Positions 4,250 through 38,483 of a DNA stretch of 64,000 nt are shown one piece after another. The notes beneath the pieces are model-generated. The model was not told the origin of the DNA, ran no database searches, and saw only the letters and a program-made list of their open reading frames with translations. Each line of letters starts with the position of its first letter. Position 1 is the first letter of the stretch. The position numbers and the translations under genes were made by a program. Origin of the DNA: Plantibacter sp. VKM Ac-2880 (lineage in GTDB: Bacteria; Actinomycetota; Actinomycetes; Actinomycetales; Microbacteriaceae); the NCBI RefSeq assembly GCF_015351235.1, contig NZ_JADKSJ010000001.1, positions 1,505,668-1,569,667 of the forward strand, in the 5' to 3' direction.

Positions 4250-5185
4250 ATGTTCACCATTCGACAGGGTCGACGCCTCGCCGTCGGCATCGCGGCGACC
4301 GCCGCAGCGGCACTCGCCCTCAGCGCCTGCTCCGCAGGCGACCCGACCGCGGGCGAGACCGCCGCCTCCGACACCATCACCGTCGGTTCCGCCGGGTTCC
4401 CCGAGTCCGAGATCATCGCGCAGATCTACATCCAGGCGCTCGAGGCGAACGACATCAAGACCGCCGAGTCACTCAACATCGGCGCCCGCGACGTCTACAT
4501 CGCCGCCCTCGAAGACGGGTCCATCGACCTCGTCCCCGACTACAGCGGCAACCTGCTGCAGTTCTTCGACGACTCGGCGACGGCCAAGTCGAGCGACGAG
4601 GTCTACTCGGCGCTCCAGGAGGCGACTCCCAAGGGCTACGAGGTGCTCGACCAGTCGAAGGCCGAGGACAAGGACTCCTACAACGTCACCAAAGAGTTCA
4701 GCGAGGCGAACAACGTCACGAGCCTCGCCGACCTCGCGTCCCTCACCGTCCCGCTGGCCATCGGCGGGGCTCCTGAGCTCGCCGAGCGCCCGTACGGACC
4801 GAAGGGCCTGACCGAGGTCTACGGTGTCCCGGCCGACAAGCTCACCTTCGTGCCGATCAGCGACGGCGGCGGCGCGCAGACCACCGCGGCCCTCCTCGAC
4901 GGCACGGTCCAGATGGCCGACATCTACACGACCACCCCGTCGATCGCCGAGAACGACTTCGTCACGCTGGAGGACCCGGAGAACCTGATCCTCCCGCAGA
5001 ACGTCCTTCCGCTGATCAACTCGGACAAGGCCAGCGACAAGGTCAAGGAGGTGCTCAACGCCGTGTCGGCGGAGCTCACCACCGAAGACCTCATCGAGCT
5101 CAACGCCCGCAACCAGGGCGACGAGAAGGCGGCACCGAAGACCCTCGCTGCCGACTGGCTCAAGGACAAGAAGCTCTTCAACTAA
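4250..5185 (+). CDS. opuCC: Osmoprotectant ABC transporter substrate-binding lipoprotein
   Basis: 311 residues with an N-terminal lipoprotein signal: basic start, alanine-rich core and lipobox LSAC (Cys about residue 24), then an acidic/Ser/Thr linker. The mature part matches the OpuAC/QAT family: ITVGSAGFPESEIIAQIY at its start, VPDYSGNLLQFF, and a C-terminal helix ending in DWLKDKKLF. It captures betaine, choline or carnitine outside the membrane and delivers it to the permease pair. The ATG is 91 bp after the permease stop, preceded by GGAAACC. The spacing allows higher expression of the binding protein, but no separate promoter is obvious. Confidence 0.92.
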   Translation: MFTIRQGRRLAVGIAATAAAALALSACSAGDPTAGETAASDTITVGSAGFPESEIIAQIYIQALEANDIKTAESLNIGARDVYIAALEDGSIDLVPDYSGNLLQFFDDSATAKSSDEVYSALQEATPKGYEVLDQSKAEDKDSYNVTKEFSEANNVTSLADLASLTVPLAIGGAPELAERPYGPKGLTEVYGVPADKLTFVPISDGGGAQTTAALLDGTVQMADIYTTTPSIAENDFVTLEDPENLILPQNVLPLINSDKASDKVKEVLNAVSAELTTEDLIELNARNQGDEKAAPKTLAADWLKDKKLFN

Positions 5186-5199
5186 CACGGCACCACCTC

Positions 5200-5233
5200 G
5201 ATGGCGTCGCCCAGTCCGCCGGGCGGCGCCATC
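5200..5233 (+). terminator. Stem-loop terminator after the Opu operon
   Basis: GATGGCG-CGCCC (from 5200) pairs with GGGCG-CGCCATC (to 5233) around an eight-base loop, with one mismatch on each side. It lies 15 bp after the lipoprotein stop. No T-tract follows. Confidence 0.65.
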
Positions 5234-27635: not shown

Positions 27636-29420
27636 ATGTGCGGGATCAGCGGTGAGATCGTGTTCGGCCGTGGGCGTCCCCGGCTGGACGCGGTGAGACG
27701 GATGACGGACGCCCTCGCGAAGCGGGGACCGGACGGCGCAGGGATCTGGACCGACGGACGCGTGGCGTTCGGTCACCGACGCCTGAGCATCATCGACCTC
27801 ACCTCGGCTGGAGCCCAACCGATGGTCGACGGGGCGGCCGGGCTCGCGGTCGTGTTCAACGGCTGCATCTACAACCATCGAGAGCTCAGGCGCGAGCTGG
27901 AACCGCACTACCGGTTCGATTCGGCGAGCGACACCGAGGTGGTGTTGAAGGCCTATCAGCGTTGGGGCGAGGACTTCGTCGACCACCTCGTCGGGATGTT
28001 CGCCATCGCGATCAGCGACCAGCGATCACGTCGGGTCATCCTCGCCAGAGACCGACTCGGTGTCAAACCGCTCTACCTGTCCGAACAACCCGACCGCCTC
28101 CGCTTCGCTTCGAGCCTCCCAGCGCTCCTCGCGGGTGGTGATGTCGACACCGACATCGACGACGTCGCGCTCCATCACTACCTCAGCTGGCACTCGATCG
28201 TGCCGGCGCCACGCACGATCCTCCGCGGGGTACGGAAGCTCCCACCGGCGACCGTCCGCGTCGTCGAGGAGGACGGCCGGTCCCGAGACCGCGTCTACTG
28301 GAGTCCGCACTACGGACGTCGACCGGAGGACGCCGGACTCTCCGCTGCGGAGTGGGAGGAGCGGGTGCACGATGCGCTCCGGACGGCGGTGCGACGTCGG
28401 CTCGTCGCCGACGTCCCGGTCGGTGTCCTCCTGTCCGGCGGGCTGGACTCCAGCCTGCTGGTCGCGTTGCTCGCCGAACTTGGTCACGATCGCACGCAGA
28501 CGTTCAGCATCGGATTCTCCGGCACCGCGGATCAACGGGGCGACGAGTTCGTGTACTCCGACGCGGTCGCCCGCGCCTACGGCACGACGCACGAGCAGAT
28601 CCGGATCGATCCGGGGGAACTCGCCGCGATCCTTCCGCGCGCCGTCGATGAGATGCCGGAACCGATGAGCACCCACGACGTGCCGGCGTTCTTCCTCCTC
28701 GCTCGCAGCGTGTCGGAGCAGGTGAAGGTCGTGCAGTCGGGGCAGGGAGCCGATGAGGTCTTCGCCGGGTACGCCTATCATCAGCCCGCGGTCGGGAGAC
28801 CGCTCGCCGAAGCGGCACCGTCGTTCCTGGGGAACTTCGCGGACCTCCGTCACGATCAGCTGCGATCGTTGATCGTTCCGGACCACACCCTTGACCAGGA
28901 CGTCAGCCGTTTGGTCGTCGAGCGGGAACTCGGCCGGCCGGATGCCGAGACCGCGCTCGACGCGGTGCTGCGGTTCGACACCCACGTCCTGATGCCGGAC
29001 GACCCCGTGAAGCGGATCGACAGCATGTGCATGGCCTGGGGCGTCGAGGCACGGGTGCCGTTCCTCGATCAGGACCTCGTCGAACTCGCGGCGACCTGCC
29101 CGCCTGAGCTCAAGGCGTCGGACGGCGGCAAGGGCGTCTTGAAGTCGCTCGGACGGAAGATCCTGCCCAGGGAGGTCGTCGATCGCCGAAAGGGGTACTT
29201 CCCGGTTCCCGCGCTCCGACAACTCGACGGCCCCGTCCTCGCGTACGTGCGAGAGGTGCTCTCGTCACCGGAGGCCCGTCGCCGCGGCCTGTTGCGTGGC
29301 GGCGTGGTCGACCGGATGCTCACCCGTCCGAACGCCACGATGACGCCGACGAACCAGAACGTCCTCTGGAACCTCACCGTGCTCGAAAGCTGGTTGCAAC
29401 GCCAGGGCGTCGCCGCGTGA
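27636..29420 (+). CDS. N-acetylglutaminylglutamine-type amidotransferase (AsnB family)
   Basis: 594 residues. Class II glutamine amidotransferase with catalytic Cys2 (MCGISGE), NGCIYNHRELR and DTEVVLKAYQRWGE; the synthetase half has the PP-loop LLSGGLDSSLL (about residues 266-276) and VVQSGQGADEVFAGY. The pattern GHRRLSIIDL...NGCIYN, LHHYLSWHSIVPAPRTILRGVRKLPPATVR and MTPTNQNVLWNLTVLESWLQ matches the NAGGN amidotransferase subfamily rather than true asparagine synthetase. That family amidates N-acetylglutaminylglutamine to the osmolyte NAGGN. Its usual partner, the GNAT/ATP-grasp synthetase, is not adjacent; a YbdK-like ligase is divergent instead. Confidence 0.85.
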   Translation: MCGISGEIVFGRGRPRLDAVRRMTDALAKRGPDGAGIWTDGRVAFGHRRLSIIDLTSAGAQPMVDGAAGLAVVFNGCIYNHRELRRELEPHYRFDSASDTEVVLKAYQRWGEDFVDHLVGMFAIAISDQRSRRVILARDRLGVKPLYLSEQPDRLRFASSLPALLAGGDVDTDIDDVALHHYLSWHSIVPAPRTILRGVRKLPPATVRVVEEDGRSRDRVYWSPHYGRRPEDAGLSAAEWEERVHDALRTAVRRRLVADVPVGVLLSGGLDSSLLVALLAELGHDRTQTFSIGFSGTADQRGDEFVYSDAVARAYGTTHEQIRIDPGELAAILPRAVDEMPEPMSTHDVPAFFLLARSVSEQVKVVQSGQGADEVFAGYAYHQPAVGRPLAEAAPSFLGNFADLRHDQLRSLIVPDHTLDQDVSRLVVERELGRPDAETALDAVLRFDTHVLMPDDPVKRIDSMCMAWGVEARVPFLDQDLVELAATCPPELKASDGGKGVLKSLGRKILPREVVDRRKGYFPVPALRQLDGPVLAYVREVLSSPEARRRGLLRGGVVDRMLTRPNATMTPTNQNVLWNLTVLESWLQRQGVAA

Positions 29421-29444: not shown

Positions 29445-30239
29445 TCAGGCCGCGACGCCTCGCACGCGGAGGGAGTTCTCGATGATCGTGAGCCCCTCCA
29501 TGCCGGGCAGCTTGGCGATGTGGCCGTCGATCCGGCGCACCTCCGCCAGGCCGTCCTCGTCGCCGAACAGGTGACCCATGACGTGGGTGACCTCGGAGTC
29601 GGGCATGACGCCGGAGCCCACCGGACCCCAGACCTTGCGCAGCAGGAACCGGGTGAGTCGGCGGGCGCTCTTCGACGACTCGAGGCGGGCCTTGGCCTGG
29701 CTCGCGTAGAACGCCACGTGGCGGGTCTCCTGCTTCGCGATGCGCTTGAGCAGCACCGAGAGGACGGGGTGCCGCTCCAACTGGGCGAGGCGGGTGTACG
29801 CGGCCGTGGCGGACCACTCGTTGGCCGCACCCCAGCTCATGTGCACGGCGATGAAATCGGTGCCGACGAGGTTGCCGAGGATCGACTGCTTGATGGGGTC
29901 GAGACGGTCCTTCCAGCCGAGCTTCAGGCGCGTCGCCTTGAGCTCGTCGAAGTCGACGGTGATGTCGTGGGCCGCCAGGACGGCGGCGAGTGCCTCGCCG
30001 TGCCAGAACTCCTCGCGGTTCCACATCGTCATGAAGGCGCCGACCTCGTCGTCCTCGTGGGACGGCGTCATGAGCATGTCCCGGAGGTAGCAGACCGTGT
30101 GGTACTCGATGTCGCACATGTACCGCAGGCTGCGGAGGGTGGAAGCGGGGAGCGGGTTCGTCTTGAACTCGTCGAAGTCGAGGTCGCTCCAGTTCACCGA
30201 GACGCTCGTCTCGGTGAACTTGTCGATGTCAAACGCCAT
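29445..30239 (-). CDS. Ferritin-like diiron protein, desaturase-like, with complete ligand set
   Basis: 264 residues, soluble helical. A full diiron-carboxylate set can be read: E45 (CDIEYHT), E77-x-x-H80 (EEFWHGE), E141 (AANEWSA) and E171-x-x-H174 (QETRHVAF), the spacing of ferritin-like oxygenases such as acyl-ACP desaturase and aldehyde-deformylating oxygenase. I do not recognise a named family. Its start lies inside the end of the acyl-reductase gene (11-bp overlap), so it is translated with it. Proposed role: O2-dependent desaturation or oxidation of a fatty alcohol, aldehyde or ether lipid; this is inference from the neighbours. It is a paralogue of the gene ending at 32619. Confidence 0.8.
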   Translation of the reverse strand: MAFDIDKFTETSVSVNWSDLDFDEFKTNPLPASTLRSLRYMCDIEYHTVCYLRDMLMTPSHEDDEVGAFMTMWNREEFWHGEALAAVLAAHDITVDFDELKATRLKLGWKDRLDPIKQSILGNLVGTDFIAVHMSWGAANEWSATAAYTRLAQLERHPVLSVLLKRIAKQETRHVAFYASQAKARLESSKSARRLTRFLLRKVWGPVGSGVMPDSEVTHVMGHLFGDEDGLAEVRRIDGHIAKLPGMEGLTIIENSLRVRGVAA

Positions 30240-32622
30240 GTGCGTTGGGGCGGTCGGGGATCGTGTCCTCGGCCGTCCGCTCTCCTCTCGGCTGTGCGGG
30301 GCGCGGTGCGCGGGTCAGTTCGTCTTCGGAGCGGACGCCCCCGGTGGTTCGGGCCCATTCTCGCACCGTCCATCGGCCGGCCTGTGCCAGCTGGTAGAGG
30401 GTGTGGTCGGGGTTCACAGCGACGGGGTTGCCGACCAACTGCAGCCAGGCCGCGTCGGCGTGCGAGTCGCCGTACCCGTAGGAGTGGGCGAGGTCCATCC
30501 CGTGCTGCTCGGCGTACTGGGTGAGCCAGGCGCCGCGGGCCTCGTCGACGAGCGGAGGGCTGTCGAGGTATCCCGTGAGGCGGCCGTGCTCGGCGTGCAT
30601 CGCGCCGGCGACGACCTCGTCGAAGAACGGTGCGAGGGGAGCGGCCATGAGGTCGATGGTGCCCGTCACGAGGATCGTCCGGTGACCGGCGGCGCGGTGC
30701 GCGGCGATCTGTTCGAGCGCCTGGGGGAGTAGTCGCGAGCGGACCGCCTTGCCGAACCCGCCTCGGACGAGCTGCTCGAGCTGGGCGACGTCGACGCCCT
30801 CGTAGCGGCGCATGAACGTGCGGATGAACTCGCCGCGGTCGCGGAGCTCGGCACCGATGTACCCGGGCATCGACGCGCCGAGTTTGGCGATCTCGATGGG
30901 CCACTGCGAGCGCGAGGTCGCGGCGAGCCGCAACCAGAGGTACTGCTCGATGAGGTTCCAGGCGAGCACCGTGCCTTCGAGGTCGAACACCGCGAGGACG
31001 TCGTCCCGCACGGGGAGGATCTTCTGCTGCTTCGCCGCGCCGGCCTTGCGGTTCGCGAACGCGCGGGTCAGCGTGGTGACGGCGGGGAAGTGGATCCGCT
31101 GGAAGTAGTCGTCCCAGTCGATCGTCGTGACGTCGAAGCCGCGGTCCGCCTGCTGCTCCGGGGTGAGTGAGGCGTGGAGCTCGCGGGTGCGACGGTCGTC
31201 GAACACGATCTCGCTCTGGACGTACGAGCGGTAGAGCCCCGTGAAGTCGCGGAGCGAGCCGAGATCGCTCGACGCCTTCCGGATGCGGTCCTGCCAGCCA
31301 CGGGTCCGTGCGTTGGCCGGGAGATGCGACACGATTCTGCCCGCTGCGCTCGTGGCCCTCTGCCGGCGGTCGATGGAGCGCTCAATGGCCCGGCCACCGG
31401 GGAAGTTCCAGGTCGGCACGCTGATGTCGCCGGCGTCGGCGGGGATCGGGTGCTCCGTGAAGTAGCTGTGCACGTTCGCGTACATCTTGTGGAACGGCAG
31501 CGGGTTGCTCGCGCCGGAGCTCACCTGGAAGTAGCGCGGCGCGGCAGGCTCGGGCGGCGTCTCGGCCGCGGCGAGGATCGCGTTCACGACGAAGTCGACC
31601 GGGATGATGTCCAGCACGCTGTCCGGCAGACCCGGGAAGTCGGGCAACTGGCCGCGACCGTAGGCGATGATCAGCGGATCGGCCACCTTGTAGCCGTCGA
31701 TCCAGCCGGGGAACGGGTGTGCGAGGGCGCTCTCGATGATGGAGGGGCGGACGAAGGACAGTCGGTTGCCCGTGCCGGCCCAACGCTCCTCGGCGACGCG
31801 TTCCGCCATCGCCTTCGTGAAGGTGTAGACGTCGGTCCAGCCGAGGCTCTCCGCCCTGGCGCGACCGTGGGCGACGAGGCGCGCGTCGACCCAGGCGATC
31901 CGTGCGGCCTCTGCCGCGGTCGAGACCGCCTGCGGACCGGCCTTGCCGTGGTCGCGGCGAGCGGTCTGCATGAGCTTCCGGAGCACCTCGGGACGACGGG
32001 AGGACTCCTCGGCGCGGATGCGGGCGGATCGCGCCGCCTCGGCCTCGGCGCGCCAGTCCACGTCGTGCACGAGGCTCCGCTCCGGCTGGATGCCCTTGCG
32101 GGTCCCGCCGACGTAGGCCGTGGACACGTGGACGACGTGCGGGGTCGCGCCGCTCTTCGCGAGCGCCGCGTAGAGGGTGGTGGCGCCGCCGACGTTCGTG
32201 GCGAAGGCCTCGTCGATCGGCGGGTCGAAGGAGACGGTCGAGGCACTGTGGATGACGACGTCGAGGTCGGACGGGAGCGCCATCTCGTCGAGTCCGCCCT
32301 CGATGACGTTCACCCGCTCGGCGACGATGGCCGAGGCCGCCTCGGCGCCGACGCGCTCGCGCCAGGCCTTGAACACGGGCTTCCGCAGGAGGGTCTGCAA
32401 GCGGTCGCTCCCGCGGACGGACCCCTTCTTGCGGATCAGCAGGCTGACCCGGGTGGTGGGGTGGTCGGCGAGCAGGCGCTCGAGCACGGCCTGCCCGAGG
32501 AAGCCGGTGCCGCCCGTGACGAGGACGTGTGCCCCGTCGAGGGCGCCGGGCGCGATCGCCGGTGCGGTGCTCGCGACAGGTTCCGGCTGCGGAACCTCGT
32601 CGGGGGTGGTGGCGTCGGTCAT
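30229..32622 (-). CDS. Fatty acyl-CoA/ACP reductase (male-sterility domain) fused to HAD-IB phosphatase-like domain
   Basis: 797 residues. An extended-SDR N-terminal half has the Rossmann motif VTGGTGFLGQAVLERLL (about 34-50), HSASTVSFDPP, VHVSTAYVGG, catalytic YTFTK (about 265) and VRPSIIES, as in fatty acyl reductases that make fatty alcohols or aldehydes. The HAD domain starts near 545 with FDLEGTV and ends with SYGYGDSHADAAWL and NPDHTLYQLA. The nucleophile motif reads D-L-E where D-x-D is usual, so phosphatase activity may be altered. The ATG at 32622 overlaps the previous stop (ATGA); an upstream open frame is only shadow. It probably supplies fatty alcohol to the AGPS-like enzyme nearby. 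Confidence 0.88.
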   Translation of the reverse strand: MTDATTPDEVPQPEPVASTAPAIAPGALDGAHVLVTGGTGFLGQAVLERLLADHPTTRVSLLIRKKGSVRGSDRLQTLLRKPVFKAWRERVGAEAASAIVAERVNVIEGGLDEMALPSDLDVVIHSASTVSFDPPIDEAFATNVGGATTLYAALAKSGATPHVVHVSTAYVGGTRKGIQPERSLVHDVDWRAEAEAARSARIRAEESSRRPEVLRKLMQTARRDHGKAGPQAVSTAAEAARIAWVDARLVAHGRARAESLGWTDVYTFTKAMAERVAEERWAGTGNRLSFVRPSIIESALAHPFPGWIDGYKVADPLIIAYGRGQLPDFPGLPDSVLDIIPVDFVVNAILAAAETPPEPAAPRYFQVSSGASNPLPFHKMYANVHSYFTEHPIPADAGDISVPTWNFPGGRAIERSIDRRQRATSAAGRIVSHLPANARTRGWQDRIRKASSDLGSLRDFTGLYRSYVQSEIVFDDRRTRELHASLTPEQQADRGFDVTTIDWDDYFQRIHFPAVTTLTRAFANRKAGAAKQQKILPVRDDVLAVFDLEGTVLAWNLIEQYLWLRLAATSRSQWPIEIAKLGASMPGYIGAELRDRGEFIRTFMRRYEGVDVAQLEQLVRGGFGKAVRSRLLPQALEQIAAHRAAGHRTILVTGTIDLMAAPLAPFFDEVVAGAMHAEHGRLTGYLDSPPLVDEARGAWLTQYAEQHGMDLAHSYGYGDSHADAAWLQLVGNPVAVNPDHTLYQLAQAGRWTVREWARTTGGVRSEDELTRAPRPAQPRGERTAEDTIPDRPNAHGV

Positions 32623-33521
32623 CGGTTCTCCTCGGTGCTTCCGTGGCGTCCACGGTGGGCGAGCTTGGCGGCGAGATGGAGGCCCGACTGACCGGGGAGC
32701 GCGTCGATGACCGCGTCGATCCCGATCACCGCCGGGTCGCTCCAGGTGGCTGTACTGCGGAACACCAGGGCGGCGAACCGTGCGGTCTGCCGGGTGCCCG
32801 TCACATCGGATCCGGTCGGCCAGACGGCGGAGCGGATGCGGCGACGGGTGATGCCCTCCGCGCGGGGCGACGCGGCGAGCCGGTCGCCGGCCTGCGCGCT
32901 GAAGAACTCCAGGTGGCGGGCCTTGGTCTCCAGGATCTCGTCGATGAGGCGGTCGAGTCCGGGATGCGCGGCGCGCTCGCGGACGGCCCGATAGGCCGCC
33001 GCGGTGATGAGGTCGTCGATCGTCCCGATCGTCATGTGCCACGCGATGATGTCCTCGCCGAGGACGTTCGCGATGAGGGCCTGACCGATCGGCGTGAACC
33101 GGTCGCTCACACCGCGGAGGGTGCGGCGGAGCCCGGTCGCCTGGACCTTGACCCGCGGCGTGCCGTTCGCCTTGAGCACGGTGTCGATGGTGTCGGTGAT
33201 CCAGTACTTCTCGTACGCCCAGGTGATGAGGAACGCGGTGACCCTGGCGTCCTTGTGGGTCGGCGTCACCAGGACGCCGCGGAGGTACTGCATGGTCGCG
33301 CGCTCGATGTCGGAGAGGGCCCGGAGCAGTGCGACCGTCTCGGGGGAGAGGGGCGTGAAGGAGAAGTCCTCCGCCTCGATCTCCTTGCGACGACTGCCGA
33401 CCGCTGAGGTGGCGTAGTCGCGGACGCTGAACCCGTGGGCGGGGCGCAGCATGGCGCTCTCCTGCTCGACGTCGTCGAGGGCGGCGGGTGCTGCTGGGCG
33501 CGGCGATTCCCGGTTCACCAT
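32619..33521 (-). CDS. Second ferritin-like protein, paralogue with degenerate diiron site
   Basis: 300 residues, aligned along its length with the protein encoded at 29445-30239 (IERATMQYLRG, LITWAYEKYW, EDIIAWHMTIG, ARHLEFFSAQAGDRL). Several ligands are lost: E77 becomes K105, H80 becomes I108 and E171 becomes K200; E73, D170 and H203 remain. It is probably a structural or regulatory partner of its intact paralogue, or uses shifted ligands (E104, E198). A 65-residue N-terminal extension is present. The ATG at 33521 has GGAG close upstream and is the first gene of a three-gene operon with ATGA and 11-bp overlaps. Confidence 0.8.
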   Translation of the reverse strand: MVNRESPRPAAPAALDDVEQESAMLRPAHGFSVRDYATSAVGSRRKEIEAEDFSFTPLSPETVALLRALSDIERATMQYLRGVLVTPTHKDARVTAFLITWAYEKYWITDTIDTVLKANGTPRVKVQATGLRRTLRGVSDRFTPIGQALIANVLGEDIIAWHMTIGTIDDLITAAAYRAVRERAAHPGLDRLIDEILETKARHLEFFSAQAGDRLAASPRAEGITRRRIRSAVWPTGSDVTGTRQTARFAALVFRSTATWSDPAVIGIDAVIDALPGQSGLHLAAKLAHRGRHGSTEENR

Positions 33522-33570
33522 GGCGTCTCCGTTCCGTGACGATCCGACCTCATCACTGTAGCTTGCAACG

Positions 33571-33590
33571 ATACGCAACGCGTAGCGTAT
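33571..33590. promoter_or_regulatory. Palindromic operator between the divergent lipid operons
   Basis: ATACGCAACGCGTAGCGTAT is a 20-bp palindrome with one mismatched pair, in the 79-bp gap between the ferritin-like gene (start 33521) and the SDR gene (start 33601). Its half-site CGTAGCG also occurs in the large palindrome in front of tetR (38445-38483). It overlaps the place where promoters for both operons must lie, and is a good candidate TetR operator. Confidence 0.6.
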
Positions 33591-33600
33591 TCTGATCCAC

Positions 33601-34398
33601 ATGGCTACAGCTCTCGTCACCGGTGGGACCTCCGGCATCGGTGCCGCGTTCGCCACGGCGCTCGCCGGGCGGGGCTTCGACCTGGTGCTCGTGGCCCGCG
33701 ACGCACAGCGCCTGGAGGCGTCGGCCGAGCGGCTCCGCGCGACCGGACGCACGGTCGAGGTGATCTCCGCCGACCTCTCCGACCGCGCCGACGTCGCACG
33801 ACTCGCCGCCCGCATCGAGGATGCCGCAGCGCCGATCGACGTCGTCGTCAACAACGCCGGCTTCGGGGTGCACGCAAGGCTGACGGATCCGGACACGAGC
33901 GAGCTCGACAACGCGATCGAGGTCATGTGCCGCAGCGTCGCCGTGCTCTCGGGCGCCGCAGCCCGTGCCATGCGTGAACGCGGCGGAGGCACCATCCTCA
34001 ACGTGTCGAGCACCGCCGGGTTCATCACCACGGGCGGGTATTCGGCGGTCAAGGCGTTCGTCACGACCTACACGGAGGCGCTCGCGGTCGAACTCGCCGG
34101 CACGGGGGTGCACGTCACGGCGCTCTGCCCGGGTTGGGTCCGCACCGAGTTCCACGACCGCGCCGGCATCAGCACCCGTTCGATCCCGTCCGGTCTCTGG
34201 ATCGACGTCGACCGACTGGTCGCCGACGCCCTCCGCGACGCCGCTCGTGGCGTCGTCGTGTCGATCCCGAGCCTCCGGTTCAAATCGCTCATGGCCCTCG
34301 TCAAGTTCGCGCCCCGCTCCTCGATCCGGTGGATCTCGGGCCGGATGTCGTCGAGTCGTCGTGCCGCGAACGCCGCCCAGTCAGGAGCCCACCGATGA
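33601..34398 (+). CDS. SDR family oxidoreductase (candidate acyl/alkyl-DHAP reductase)
   Basis: 265 residues, classical SDR. TGGTSGIGAAFATAL binds NADP(H), VNNAGFG follows, then the catalytic Ser in NVSSTAGF and Tyr-x-x-x-Lys in GGYSAVKAF; PGWVRTEF is the usual C-terminal motif. Substrate is not readable from sequence. It opens an operon with an acyltransferase and an AGPS-like flavoprotein joined by ATGA overlaps, so reduction of the ketone of acyl- or alkyl-DHAP is the natural proposal. The ATG is 11 bases after the palindromic operator, leaving little room for a ribosome site. Confidence 0.88.
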   Translation: MATALVTGGTSGIGAAFATALAGRGFDLVLVARDAQRLEASAERLRATGRTVEVISADLSDRADVARLAARIEDAAAPIDVVVNNAGFGVHARLTDPDTSELDNAIEVMCRSVAVLSGAAARAMRERGGGTILNVSSTAGFITTGGYSAVKAFVTTYTEALAVELAGTGVHVTALCPGWVRTEFHDRAGISTRSIPSGLWIDVDRLVADALRDAARGVVVSIPSLRFKSLMALVKFAPRSSIRWISGRMSSSRRAANAAQSGAHR

Positions 34399-35099
34399 CC
34401 GCAGAGCCGCGGTTCACCTCATCCCTGCACGCGAACGCGCGCTTCGTCGCACAGCGCCTCCTGCTGAAGCCGCTCGTCTGGTCGTTGACTCGCGTCCGCG
34501 TGACGGGCCGCGAGCGTCTCACCGGGGTGGACGGTCCGTTCATCGTCGTCGCGAACCACCAGTCCCACCTCGACGCCCCGCTCGTCGTCGGTGCGATGCC
34601 ACGGCGACTCTCGCGGTTCCTCGCCGCCGGTGTCGCGGCGGACTACTTCTTCGACGTCCCCGCCCGACGCCTGTTCGCGGCCCTGTTCTTCAACGCCTTC
34701 CCGGTCGACCGTTCGGGCGACCGCAAACGGGCCGGTGTGTCGAGGGATCTCCTCGAGAGCGGCGTCCCGATCCTCATCTTCCCCGAGGGCGGCAGATCCA
34801 AGACGGGTGAGCTCGGCCGGTTCAAGCCCGGCGCGGCGGCCCTCGCGACCCGCCAGGGCATCCCGTGCCTCCCGGTCGCCGTGCTCGGGACCCACGCCGC
34901 GATGCCCAAGGGGCGCAACTGGCCTGTCCCCGGACGCCCGCCCGTCAGCGTCGTCTTCGGGCGCCCGATCCACCCGCAACCGAACGAGACGCCCGTCCAG
35001 CTCATGGACCGCGTCGTCGCCGAGATCGTGGCGCTGCGCGCCTCGGTCGAGCCGGGAGCACACGTGTCGATCGACACACCACGAAAGGAAGCCGGATGA
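34395..35099 (+). CDS. PlsC/GNPAT-like glycerolipid acyltransferase
   Basis: 234 residues, LPLAT family. The HX4D catalytic motif is NHQSHLDAP (about residues 55-60), and the acceptor-binding FPEGGRSKTGELGRFKPGA is about 135-150; an N-terminal amphipathic helix suits membrane association. The family acylates lysophosphatidate; its position between an SDR and an AGPS-like enzyme makes DHAP or 1-alkyl-glycerol-3-phosphate an alternative acceptor. The start overlaps the SDR stop by ATGA and its stop overlaps the next start by ATGA. Confidence 0.9.
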   Translation: MTAEPRFTSSLHANARFVAQRLLLKPLVWSLTRVRVTGRERLTGVDGPFIVVANHQSHLDAPLVVGAMPRRLSRFLAAGVAADYFFDVPARRLFAALFFNAFPVDRSGDRKRAGVSRDLLESGVPILIFPEGGRSKTGELGRFKPGAAALATRQGIPCLPVAVLGTHAAMPKGRNWPVPGRPPVSVVFGRPIHPQPNETPVQLMDRVVAEIVALRASVEPGAHVSIDTPRKEAG

Positions 35100-36760
35100 C
35101 GTCTGTGGAGCACATGAAGTGGTGGGGCTGGGGTGTCGAGGGTGTCGCCTTCGAGCACAGCAACAAGCCGGACTTCGCGCCGTTCGTGAAACAGGCCGTC
35201 GGCCTCGACCTGCGGAAGCCGGCGCAGTCGCACCTCAGCTTCGACGAGCTCACCGTCCCGGCCTCGCGCGCGACCGAGGAGTTCATCGCCGAGCTCTCGC
35301 TGCTCGTCGGCCAGGGCCACGTCACGGCCGACGACGAGGAACGCGTCGTCCACACCTACGGCAAGAGCATCCGCGACCTGCTCCGCATCCGCGCGAACGA
35401 CCTTCCGCGGACGCCCGACCTCGTCGTGTACCCGGCCGATGAGGCCGAGGTCGCCTCCGTGGTCGCGGCGGCCGTCGCCGCGGACGCCGTCATCATCCCG
35501 TTCGGCGGCGGAACCAACATCGCCGGCTCGCTCGACCCGCAGCCGACGGAGGAGCGGGTCATCATCTCCCTCGACCTCGGCCGTCTCGACCGCGTGCTGT
35601 CGATCGACGAGGGCTCCGGCCTCGCCACCATCCAAGCGGGTGCGCAGGGACCGTCGATCGAGGAACAGCTCGGCGCCAAGGGCTGGACGATGGGCCACTT
35701 CCCCGACAGCTTCACGCACTCGACCCTCGGCGGTTGGGTGGCGACGCGCTCCTCGGGCATGCAGTCCGACAAGTACGGCGACATCGCCGACATCACCAAG
35801 GGCCTGCGCATGGTCCGGCCGAACGGGATCGTCGCGATCCGTCCTGTTCCGAGCGCTTCCACCGGACCGAGCGTCCGCGAGATGATCATCGGCAGCGAGG
35901 GCCGCCTCGGCATCATCACCGAGGTCACGGTGCAGGTCCACCGCACGCCGGCGGTCCGCGAGGTCCTCGGCTACTTCTTCCCCACCTGGGAGGCCGGACT
36001 CGCGGCGATGCACGAGATCGCCGAGAGCGACGCCAGCCCGTCCGTCACGCGCGTGTCGAACGCCCGCGAGAGCGGCTTCTCGCTCGCGACCCGGAAGGCC
36101 AGCACCGGCGTCTCGGCGCAGGTCACGAAGGGCCTCATGAAGGTCCTCACGGCCCGCGGCTGGGACCTCGAGCAGCTGTGCCTGTCCTTCATCGGTTACG
36201 AGGGCAGCGCCTCGCACGTCCGCTACGAGAAGGGCCTCGTCGGCTCGATCGTCCGCAAGCACGGCGGCATGGGTGTCGGCAAGGGCCCCGGTGCCCTGTA
36301 CGACCAGAAGAAGTTCGACACCCCCTACCTGCGCGACTTCCTGCTCGACCGTGGCGCAGCGGCCGACGTCTCGGAGACGGCCGCACCCTGGTCTCGGCTG
36401 CAGGAGGTCTACGACGCGGCGAACGACGCCGCCAACGCCGCGTACGACAAGCTCGGCGTGCACGGCTGGATCATGTGCCACCTCTCGCACTCGTACCACT
36501 CGGGTGCCTGCCTGTACTTCACCTTCGCGTTCATCACGGGCGACGACCCGATCGGTGAGTATGAGCAGGTCAAGTCGGCCATCCAGCAGTCCTTCGTCGA
36601 CCACGGCGGGACCCTGTCGCACCACCACGCGGTCGGTGTCGAGCACGCGCCGTGGATGGAGCAGGACATCTCGACCGAGGGCGTCGCGATCATGCGCGGC
36701 CTCTTCGACAGCGCGGACCCGGGATCGAACTTCAACCCCGGCAAGATCCTCGCCGACTGA
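35096..36760 (+). CDS. Alkyldihydroxyacetonephosphate-synthase (AGPS)-like FAD enzyme
   Basis: 554 residues, VAO/PCMH-type FAD fold. AGPS features: EHMKWWGWG near the N-terminus (AGPS MKWNGWG), IIPFGGGTNIAGSL (about 136-149), HFPDSFTHSTLGGWVATRSSGM, IIGSEGRLGIITEV, SYHSGACLYFTF and the triple histidine SHHHAVGVEHAPW (about 505). AGPS exchanges the acyl chain of acyl-DHAP for a fatty alcohol, forming the ether bond. Close relatives also include bacterial FAD-linked oxidases, so the reaction is probable rather than certain. AAAGGAAG precedes the ATG, which overlaps the acyltransferase stop. Confidence 0.88.
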   Translation: MTSVEHMKWWGWGVEGVAFEHSNKPDFAPFVKQAVGLDLRKPAQSHLSFDELTVPASRATEEFIAELSLLVGQGHVTADDEERVVHTYGKSIRDLLRIRANDLPRTPDLVVYPADEAEVASVVAAAVAADAVIIPFGGGTNIAGSLDPQPTEERVIISLDLGRLDRVLSIDEGSGLATIQAGAQGPSIEEQLGAKGWTMGHFPDSFTHSTLGGWVATRSSGMQSDKYGDIADITKGLRMVRPNGIVAIRPVPSASTGPSVREMIIGSEGRLGIITEVTVQVHRTPAVREVLGYFFPTWEAGLAAMHEIAESDASPSVTRVSNARESGFSLATRKASTGVSAQVTKGLMKVLTARGWDLEQLCLSFIGYEGSASHVRYEKGLVGSIVRKHGGMGVGKGPGALYDQKKFDTPYLRDFLLDRGAAADVSETAAPWSRLQEVYDAANDAANAAYDKLGVHGWIMCHLSHSYHSGACLYFTFAFITGDDPIGEYEQVKSAIQQSFVDHGGTLSHHHAVGVEHAPWMEQDISTEGVAIMRGLFDSADPGSNFNPGKILAD

Positions 36761-36781
36761 GCCATCCGGTCCTTGACCCGC

Positions 36782-36825
36782 CCTCGGGTCCCGGAGCCGG
36801 TCGAAGGGCGGCTCAGGACCCGAGG
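36782..36825. terminator. Bidirectional terminator containing a repeat-like core
   Basis: CCTCGGGTCC (36782-36791) pairs with GGACCCGAGG (36816-36825), extended inward by GAGCC/GGCTC. The loop carries GGTCGAAGGG, related to the dispersed CTGAGCCTGTCGAAGGG element. It separates the convergent AGPS-like and diacylglycerol kinase genes and includes the stop codon of the latter. Confidence 0.75.
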
Positions 36826-37841
36826 CGGGTGGAACGCGAGGTCGTCACCGGCAGGCGCACGAGCAGCGCGCCCGCGTCGACGGTCACGCGTGCCGCGGCG
36901 ACCAGACCGATGCCGTCGCCGTCGGCTTGGAACGCCGCGGGTGGTGACACCGTGACGTCCAGCCGCTCCGCCCGGAGGTAGCGGACCGCGCCGCCCGCGG
37001 ATCCGGCCGTCTCGACGGCGCTTGGCCGTGGGCGTCGCCGCGCGAGCTTCGACCTCGTCAACCGGGCGACGGGGTTGTTCGCGCGATGCAGCCAGCGGGT
37101 CACCCGGACCCCGTCCCATCCCTCGAGCGAGCGCACCATGAGCACGTCGAGGACGCCGTCGTCGATCAGTGCGTCCGGGAGGACGTCGAGTCCAGCCGAG
37201 ACGGTCCCGCAGTTCCCGACGAACATCGTGTGGGTCCGCGCGCTGCGCATCGATCCGCCGTCCGCCTTCCAGGACAGCCGCGGCCGGTCCCGACGGAAGA
37301 GCCCTCGGACGATGGGGCCGACGTAGGCGACCCAGCCGAGGCGTCGCTTGAGGACGGGATCGGCGTAGGCGACCATGTCTGCGTCCACCCCGAAGCCCGT
37401 CATCACGAGGAACGGGGTGCTCCGCCGCACGCCGTCCACAGCTCGGTACTCGATCGACCCCACGTCGATGTGGCGTTCCTCCCCGGTGAACGCCGCTCGG
37501 ACGGCTGCGGCCGTGTCGATGGGGATGCCGGCGTTCCGGGCGAAGAGGTTCGCCGTGCCGAGGGGGACCACGGCGAACGCTGTCCGGGTGTGACGCATGG
37601 CGCCGGCGACCTCGCGGACCGTGCCGTCACCGCCCGCCGCGATCACGAGCGCCGCGCCACCGTCGAGGGCCTCGGCGACCTGTTCGACGGCGGCGGACCG
37701 CTCGCGGGTCGGGATCCAGGTCGTCGGGCCCCAACCGGCGTCGTCCGCTGCGTCGTCGACGAGGCGGCGGAGACGCTCGAGCTGGACGCGCGTCGGGTTG
37801 TAGACGACCGCCGCGTGCGGTCGAGTGCTGCGGCGGTTCAT
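36813..37841 (-). CDS. Diacylglycerol kinase family lipid kinase (YegS/LCB5-like)
   Basis: 342 residues. The catalytic-domain motif AAGGDGTVREVAGAMR (about 69-84), VVPLGTANLFARN and GFGVDADMVAYAD define the DAGK_cat family; the C-terminal beta-sandwich ends in FQADGDGIGL. It phosphorylates diacylglycerol or a related lipid alcohol at the membrane. It overlaps the tetR stop by four bases, so it is expressed with the regulator, and is convergent with the ether-lipid-type operon. Phosphorylation of an alkyl- or alkyl-acylglycerol is a reasonable inference only. Confidence 0.88.
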   Translation of the reverse strand: MNRRSTRPHAAVVYNPTRVQLERLRRLVDDAADDAGWGPTTWIPTRERSAAVEQVAEALDGGAALVIAAGGDGTVREVAGAMRHTRTAFAVVPLGTANLFARNAGIPIDTAAAVRAAFTGEERHIDVGSIEYRAVDGVRRSTPFLVMTGFGVDADMVAYADPVLKRRLGWVAYVGPIVRGLFRRDRPRLSWKADGGSMRSARTHTMFVGNCGTVSAGLDVLPDALIDDGVLDVLMVRSLEGWDGVRVTRWLHRANNPVARLTRSKLARRRPRPSAVETAGSAGGAVRYLRAERLDVTVSPPAAFQADGDGIGLVAAARVTVDAGALLVRLPVTTSRSTRLGS

Positions 37842-38404
37842 GCCGCCAGTGCCGGCCAGAGCACGGAGAGGACCTGGTCCGCCCAGTCGTCGTCCATGTC
37901 GGCACCGCGGACGAGCTGCCCGAGGACGGCGCCGAGCAGGAGCGTCGCGACGAGACGGCCGTCGAGACCGGGCTTCAGGTCTCCCGTGGAGATCCGCTCG
38001 TCGACGAGGTTCGAGAGGGCGCGAGCGCGGTTCCGCGTGAGGTCACGGAGGAGGGTGGAGAACTCGGGATCGTCCTGCAGCAGGATCGAGGCGATCGTGC
38101 CGCGGCCGACCACGTCCTCGATCATCGTGCGCGCCTCGTGGAGCAGCCAGGTGAAGGTCTCGTACGTCGGCAGGTCCGCGGGGATCTCGACCGGGGTCTC
38201 CATGGCGCGGGCGACGGCCGCCGTGAGCAGCTCGGAGCGGTTGCGGTACCGCCGGTAGATCGTCGTCTTGGCGACACCGGTGGTCTCGGCGACCGCCTCG
38301 ATGTTGACGGCGACCGAGCCGCGCGAGCGCATGAGGTCGAGGGCTGCGTCGAGGATGCGGTCGCTCATCTGCTGCGCTCGGGAGACGCGTCGGGAGACCG
38401 GCAC
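37838..38404 (-). CDS. TetR family transcriptional regulator
   Basis: 188 residues. N-terminal helix-turn-helix (about 12-58; RILDAALDLMRSRG, VNIEAVAETTGVAKTTIYRRYRNRSELL), C-terminal helical ligand domain. The GTG at 38404 is preferred: GGAGGAGG lies seven bases upstream, while the longer frame from 38476 would run through the operator palindrome. A 39-bp inverted repeat lies 41 bp before the start and fits autorepression. Its half-site recurs in the control region of the lipid operons, suggesting that it regulates them; fatty acyl-CoA is a common ligand of such TetR proteins. Confidence 0.88.
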   Translation of the reverse strand: MPVSRRVSRAQQMSDRILDAALDLMRSRGSVAVNIEAVAETTGVAKTTIYRRYRNRSELLTAAVARAMETPVEIPADLPTYETFTWLLHEARTMIEDVVGRGTIASILLQDDPEFSTLLRDLTRNRARALSNLVDERISTGDLKPGLDGRLVATLLLGAVLGQLVRGADMDDDWADQVLSVLWPALAA

Positions 38405-38444
38405 CGACCAACCTCCTCCGCGCGGAAGCCGATTCCGGGTAAAC

Positions 38445-38483
38445 CAGCCGATTGCGCTACGCCCACCGTAGCGCAATCGGCTG
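38445..38483. promoter_or_regulatory. Perfect 17-bp inverted repeat, probable TetR operator
   Basis: CAGCCGATTGCGCTACG (38445-38461) and its exact complement CGTAGCGCAATCGGCTG (38467-38483) flank CCCAC. It lies in front of the tetR start. The inner half-site CGTAGCG matches the palindrome at 33571-33590, with a spacer of five here and none there. It could instead form an RNA hairpin. Confidence 0.7.

Follow-up and report, generated by a model that had tools for sequence, protein, structure and literature searches.

A conserved actinobacterial gene cluster as a candidate aerobic ether-lipid and plasmalogen pathway with a soluble diiron protein

The 64,000-nucleotide stretch of DNA considered here, from the plant-associated bacterium Plantibacter sp. 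VKM Ac-2880 (the window, from a host genome of 4.03 Mb), contains a cluster of lipid genes that, in our judgement, very probably makes ether lipids. The best overall explanation, which we hold with moderate confidence, is that the cluster encodes an aerobic ether-lipid and plasmalogen pathway in which a soluble ferritin-like diiron protein, A, acts as the vinyl-ether desaturase. The ether-lipid role is supported by the identity of an alkylglycerone-phosphate synthase (AGPS), by the presence of a fatty acyl reductase (FAR), a short-chain dehydrogenase (SDR) and an LPLAT-family acyltransferase, by the co-occurrence of A with AGPS across genomes, and by the replacement of one AGPS lineage with another within the operon. 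The proposed role of A follows from elimination, as neither CarF nor PF09989 proteins are found, from the same co-occurrence, from the fold of A and from a lipid phenotype in two sequenced species.

Six genes are arranged as two divergent operons, A/FAR-HAD/B on the minus strand and SDR/LPLAT/AGPS on the plus strand. The genes overlap by 11 bp at A/FAR and by 4 bp each at B/FAR, SDR/LPLAT and LPLAT/AGPS. An earlier sequence-only reading of this DNA had described two divergent operons of overlapping genes with this domain content, in agreement with the gene calls and with Pfam and NCBIfam matches; a YegS-type lipid kinase gene and a TetR gene also lie inside the range it covered and were left unnamed there. 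The features are as follows (DHAP, dihydroxyacetone phosphate; G3P, glycerol 3-phosphate).

29445-30239, minus strand: diiron protein A, soluble and ferritin-like with an acyl-ACP-desaturase-like fold; candidate plasmanyl (vinyl-ether-forming) desaturase (metal ligands, AlphaFold2 model, VIA-align)
30229-32622, minus strand: fatty acyl reductase (NAD_binding_4 and Sterile domains) fused to a HAD-IB phosphatase, FAR-HAD (Pfam, solved relative 7eoz)
32619-33521 (the start may be 33452), minus strand: ferritin-like protein B, a paralogue of A with a degenerate metal site; probable non-catalytic partner (hhalign, alignment)
33571-33590, no strand: palindrome ATACGCAACGCGTAGCGTAT in the gap separating the two operons; putative operator of the TetR protein (single match in the window)
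33601-34398, plus strand: SDR, candidate alkyl/acyl-DHAP reductase (adh_short, 2.5e-44)
34395-35099, plus strand: LPLAT/PlsC-family acyltransferase, candidate DHAP or alkyl-G3P acyltransferase (PF01553, 6.8e-22)
35096-36760, plus strand: AGPS homologue (scores, tree, active-site positions)
36813-37841, minus strand: YegS/DAGK-family lipid kinase, possible alkylglycerol/diacylglycerol kinase (PF00781, 1.3e-21)
37838-38476, minus strand: TetR-family regulator, putative regulator of the cluster (PF00440, 3.5e-10)

Judged by its sequence, the flavoprotein of the plus-strand operon is an AGPS and not a glycolate or lactate oxidase. It scores 391.7 bits against Dictyostelium AGPS (2uuu) and 298 against the guinea-pig enzyme (4bby), compared with 79 against glycolate oxidase. 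A tree that also includes solved glycolate oxidase and lactate dehydrogenases and a GlcD-like paralogue from the host places it on the AGPS side of a starred split of 100. The guinea-pig positions H300, D303, R419, R515, Y578 and H615-617, which we take from AGPS structure work to be the active site, are all identical in the window protein; position 527 (guinea-pig numbering) differs, with V replacing S. The motifs on which AGPS had been recognized from the sequence alone (an N-terminal MKWWGWG, the GHFPDS/GGWVATRSSGM stretch and HHH) are all present. A grouping with the oxidases had been named beforehand as the outcome that would speak against the ether-lipid reading. Scores and tree speak against an oxidase, and with the protein grouping with AGPS and its active-site residues kept, this comparison fails to refute that reading.

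The remaining steps towards an alkyl lipid also have candidates. FAR matches PF07993 (2.3e-47) and PF03015 (7.8e-8; 32.8 bits, slightly below the cut-off of 35.4), and its best solved relative, the fatty acyl-CoA reductase 7eoz (158 bits), covers residues 24-512, spanning both domains. The SDR, which tblastn finds kept in the cluster across related loci, has mycolate reductase as its nearest NCBIfam model, at a score below the model cut-off. The LPLAT protein has the PlsC-type acyltransferase 5kym as the only solved relative found, in a comparison without a GNPAT reference. The earlier claim of a candidate for every step is borne out in so far as AGPS, FAR, SDR and LPLAT are all present; its softer part is LPLAT as acyl-DHAP synthase, a function that we infer for a protein whose relative is PlsC-type. 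A DAGK gene adjoins A in Subtercola and Labedella as well. The loci of these genera (L130, 7651-9836; L137, 7596-9859; L097, 7691-9990) contain two extra genes between FAR and A, one LarA-like (Lar_N, the lactate racemase domain) and the other a second PlsC-family gene, with DAGK next.

We observe a close association between A and AGPS. Among 200 Microbacteriaceae genomes, 53 have A with a close AGPS, seven A only, two AGPS only and 138 neither (Fisher 5e-38, but the genomes are related by descent); at the genus level the counts are 27 with both, two A-only and one AGPS-only. Both AGPS-only genomes are incomplete (85% and 77%). A scan of named genomes, which lists carriers only, covered the best 80 of 402, with Frondihabitans, Frigoribacterium and Kineococcus not among them. 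All six genes lie within 10 kb in 51 of these 80 loci by strict gene call, and tblastn adds a few, so that the arrangement is not a matter of chance. Three named Plantibacter strains have an A that is 100% identical to that of the window. In Naasia, Microlunatus and Jiangella A stands apart from AGPS, yet a 63-70% identical AGPS is encoded elsewhere in the genome. FAR was found in all three tested genomes where A and AGPS are separated in this way, and Jiangella has a contiguous FAR-SDR-PlsC-AGPS operon.

The AGPS lineage can itself be exchanged. In two Propionibacteriaceae-type loci, L122 and L133, B-FAR-A is joined by an animal-type AGPS of another subfamily (5078-6847 in L122, with 488 bits to 4bby and 285 to 2uuu; 411-2180 in L133), and both proteins group with animal AGPS and not with the AGPS of related actinobacteria. 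This non-orthologous swap suggests that the unit keeps an AGPS despite the change of lineage. A second actinobacterial AGPS-like clade (L159-L162 and L164), 34-39% identical to the window AGPS, has DAGK adjoining and neither FAR nor A; regulator-like and GlpD-like genes are often nearby too. Its loci resemble the Mycobacterium Rv2249c-Rv2252 region.

What could be the function of protein A? Its predicted metal ligands E45, E77xxH80, E141 and E171xxH174 are identical in 94 of 94 aligned copies. A and B are clear paralogues (hhalign 100%, E 9e-56), and in nearly all of 75 copies B has E77 replaced by K, R or Q, H80 by I, L, V or M and E171 by K or R, while retaining E45 and often also E141 and H174. 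The two ferritin-like proteins of the sequence-only reading are thus both there, but the metal ligands are kept in A only and mostly lost in B, which is probably a non-catalytic partner of A, judging from the alignment. The AlphaFold2 model of A (pLDDT 88.9, pTM 0.87) has soluble acyl-ACP desaturases in all of the top ten VIA-align rows (Z 16.6-17.9, 3.2-3.7 angstrom, 208-241 residues), followed by R2lox at Z of about 16. Acyl-ACP desaturases, R2lox and R2 dominate the listed structures, among which an azoxy synthase and an aldehyde-deformylating oxidase are also present; families missing from these rows are not thereby excluded. As the best Foldseek E-value is only 1e-3 and helical bundles readily reach a high Z, the model supports the fold class, not the reaction. 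Against PF03405 (FA_desaturase_2) the window protein scores 18.5 bits, below the curated cut-off of 22.7, and the same family matches 42 of 50 homologues at E up to 0.01, the best at 1.5e-5. More distant A homologues (37-48%; L143-L152) in other actinobacterial lineages stand alone without B; no ether-lipid neighbours were found within the 11-20 kb read around them, and they were not counted as the same system.

Lipid data exist for two carriers of the cluster. Subtercola vilae DB165 yields dimethylacetals (DMAs) of 17.0% i-16:0, 3.2% a-15:0 and 1.9% a-17:0, and S. lobariae of 6.9% i-16:0, 9.7% a-15:0 and 2.6% a-17:0 (PMC5945732); the genomes of both carry the cluster. The earlier statement that several Microbacteriaceae release DMAs is right for Subtercola and extends to Agreia and Frigoribacterium at lower or less certain levels (PMC5945732, PMC12823222). 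Neither the entire host genome, nor protein A, nor the two Subtercola genomes have a match to PF10520, the CarF family, in line with the first impression that no CarF-like gene was visible. The search itself works, since among 346 genomes of the phylum it picks up 15, of which 14 score above the cut-off. PF09989, presumably part of the PlsA domain make-up and used here as the PlsA/R-type domain, is found in none of 18 genomes including the host and Subtercola, with four control genomes positive; PF01869 and PF06050 were not searched. Within the phylum sample one actinobacterial family, f18, is rich in CarF-family proteins (G225, G329 and others; L153, L154), and none of its PF10520-bearing genomes matched AGPS at E 1e-60; the two occur together in G328 alone, of family f47.

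In Kineococcus rubinsiae, a-15:0 DMA identified by GC-MS was called 14:0 2OH by the MIDI system, which names DMAs only with its anaerobe database (PMC7472656). Frigoribacterium species are reported with both a-15:0 aldehyde/DMA and 14:0 2OH (PMC12823222). Frondihabitans, reported without DMAs, is a poor negative because it shows '14:0 2-OH', the MIDI name for the Kineococcus DMA (PMC7472656). For Herbiconiux, Jiangella and Labedella our literature search gave no usable DMA report.

Several observations weigh against a desaturase role for A. Agromyces terreus and the genomes G025, G102, G162, G057, G079 and G142 keep A and B without a close AGPS or FAR; G142, and perhaps others of this group, has just a distant AGPS-like protein (37%). 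The five members placed in the A tree form a single starred clade nested among AGPS-linked ones, where the truncated or unlinked loci L065, L075, L105, L119, L125 and L136 are labelled AGPS-bearing without direct sight of the gene. Nearest to the clade from outside is row L138, an additional copy: the same genome encodes AGPS and a further A/B pair. A is thus not bound to AGPS everywhere, which is the main argument against a desaturase, and in this one derived clade it must act otherwise. Its loci L139-L141 and L134 keep all ligands of A, making a second role for the protein likely. The seventh A-only genome of the family, G107, is a different case: here a contig end seems to interrupt the LPLAT gene, as A lies at 4434-5225 of the contig just as in L105, whose contig ends there. 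Conversely, a distant metagenome-assembled genome, G533, has a 59% identical AGPS and no match to A. B is not universally required, although a common partner: in Jiangella and Actinopolymorpha the search with B yields a single hit in each genome, and that hit is A. The fold of A also occurs in R2lox, R2 and oxygenases. On the lipid side, a FAR could release free fatty aldehydes, and these too can give DMAs, so that DMAs suggest plasmalogens but do not prove them. Lacisediminihabitans profunda, a congener of a cluster carrier, shows just traces of '14:0 2-OH', and we found no lipid data for Plantibacter in the literature.

One alternative is that the cluster yields saturated alkyl-ether lipids only, with A, together with B, modifying something else, for instance desaturating or hydroxylating an acyl or alkyl chain before AGPS; DMAs would then stem from fatty aldehydes or another enzyme. 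The operon shared with FAR, a fold like that of acyl-ACP desaturases, enzymes known to act on acyl chains, the clade with A and B but no AGPS or FAR, and the a-15:1 acid reported in Kineococcus rubinsiae (PMC7472656) would all suit such a role. We nevertheless regard it as unlikely, because the DMA fractions of Subtercola are large and yet no CarF or PF09989 protein is found there, and because, the one derived clade excepted, AGPS accompanies A in complete genomes, which would be odd for a general acyl desaturase.

A function like that of ADO or AGMO, in which A as an oxygenase would deformylate the FAR aldehyde or cleave the alkyl ethers of ether lipids, is improbable too. The gene of A does adjoin FAR and the aldehyde-deformylating diiron protein 6d9f has a similar fold (Z 15.1), but acyl-ACP desaturases score higher, and neither alkane formation nor ether cleavage would predict co-occurrence with AGPS and accumulation of DMAs. 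A cluster for wax ester, glycolipid or other lipid synthesis built around a glycolate/lactate-type oxidase has very little to recommend it: the flavoprotein belongs to the same superfamily and has generic NCBIfam GlcD matches below cut-off, but the tree, the scores and the kept active-site residues all place it with AGPS. We thus lean towards A as a soluble, CarF-independent plasmanyl desaturase. The earlier suggestion of a diiron protein in place of CarF fits most of the findings, the derived clade being the part that counts against it.

What the computation establishes is the family identity of AGPS and FAR, their conservation and co-occurrence, the intact set of diiron ligands in A, a likely operator and the lack of CarF and PF09989 proteins; from this we infer the individual enzymatic steps and the roles of A and B. 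FAR would reduce fatty acyl-CoA or -ACP to a fatty alcohol, while LPLAT, the cluster's own or a housekeeping one, would make acyl-DHAP. AGPS would swap the acyl chain for the fatty alcohol to give alkyl-DHAP, the SDR would reduce this to alkyl-G3P, and LPLAT with housekeeping enzymes would carry it on to alkyl-acyl phospholipids. Protein A, assisted in most lineages by the metal-site-degenerate B, would then take the place of membrane CarF/PEDS1 and form the vinyl ether by oxidising the O-alkyl chain at C1'-C2'. The TetR protein may control the shared promoter region.

This last assignment is suggested by the 20-bp palindrome at 33571-33590, likely the TetR operator for the shared promoter region. 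It is the sole match in the window, where 0.03 are expected, and a related palindrome occupies the corresponding position in all 23 named loci that have the neighbouring TetR gene and in four of the 28 for which no TetR was called; as the test was devised after the pattern was seen and the loci are related, the Fisher value of 1e-10 overstates the case. Of the four exceptions, L101 has a tblastn TetR match, L124 a 32% TetR match, and L075 and L077 lie on contigs that stop close to the cluster. The gene adjoining the cluster at 27636-29420 encodes an N-acetylglutaminylglutamine amidotransferase (843.7 bits for TIGR03104, whose cut-off is 570.1) and probably has nothing to do with the lipid genes.

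Plasmalogens are described as nearly absent from aerobic bacteria save myxobacteria, and CarF/PEDS1 is the identified aerobic vinyl-ether enzyme (PMC9131029). Reports of DMAs in aerobic Subtercola date back to 2000, and Kineococcus, another aerobic producer, was added later (PMC5945732, PMC7472656). We found no gene proposed in the literature for these actinobacterial DMAs, and no report of the cluster or of a soluble vinyl-ether desaturase, in a search that reached few subscription papers and does not prove novelty. The evidence tips slightly towards the hypothesis that aerobic actinobacteria evolved a second, CarF-independent route to the vinyl ether, in which O-alkyl lipids from a TetR-controlled AGPS operon are desaturated by a soluble diiron enzyme with the acyl-ACP desaturase/R2lox fold, usually accompanied by a degenerate paralogue. 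If so, plasmalogens would occur widely among aerobic Actinomycetota and have mostly gone unnoticed, as the software used for routine fatty-acid analysis can label DMAs as hydroxy acids. The cluster would account for long-unexplained plasmalogen signals in these bacteria, and it offers concrete genes, sequenced strains with a DMA phenotype and one candidate enzyme. Should A be the desaturase, oxygen-dependent enzymes would have invented the vinyl-ether bond more than once, and plasmalogen synthesis would gain a soluble tool enzyme.

How does the cluster compare with known systems? The animal aerobic pathway (FAR1, GNPAT, AGPS, PexRAP/DHRS7B and PEDS1/TMEM189) has counterparts here in FAR, the PF01553 acyltransferase, AGPS and SDR, and its last step depends on oxygen, as is likewise proposed for the cluster. 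Unlike that pathway, the cluster lacks a PF10520 desaturase and offers a soluble carboxylate-type diiron protein as the candidate, its FAR is fused to HAD, and its genes stand in one bacterial operon pair. With the Myxococcus xanthus genes MXAN_1676-1674, the elb operon and CarF (PMC9131029), it has in common an AGPS homologue, FAR and acyltransferase domains, a HAD protein and dehydrogenase-family genes, whereas CarF and an ElbD-type multidomain protein are missing from the cluster, whose AGPS is closely tied to FAR and A; A and B are not reported for M. xanthus (PMC9131029). The anaerobic PlsA/PlsR pathway leads to the same proposed end product, but does so by reductive conversion of diacyl lipids in anaerobes, and its PF09989 is missing from the host and Subtercola genomes. 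Protein A shares its fold and E/ExxH/E/ExxH ligands with the soluble acyl-ACP desaturases (castor delta-9, Mtb DesA2) and with R2-like ligand-binding oxidases, from which it differs in its low identity of 12-17%, in its proposed O-alkyl chain substrate and in having B as a metal-site-degenerate partner.

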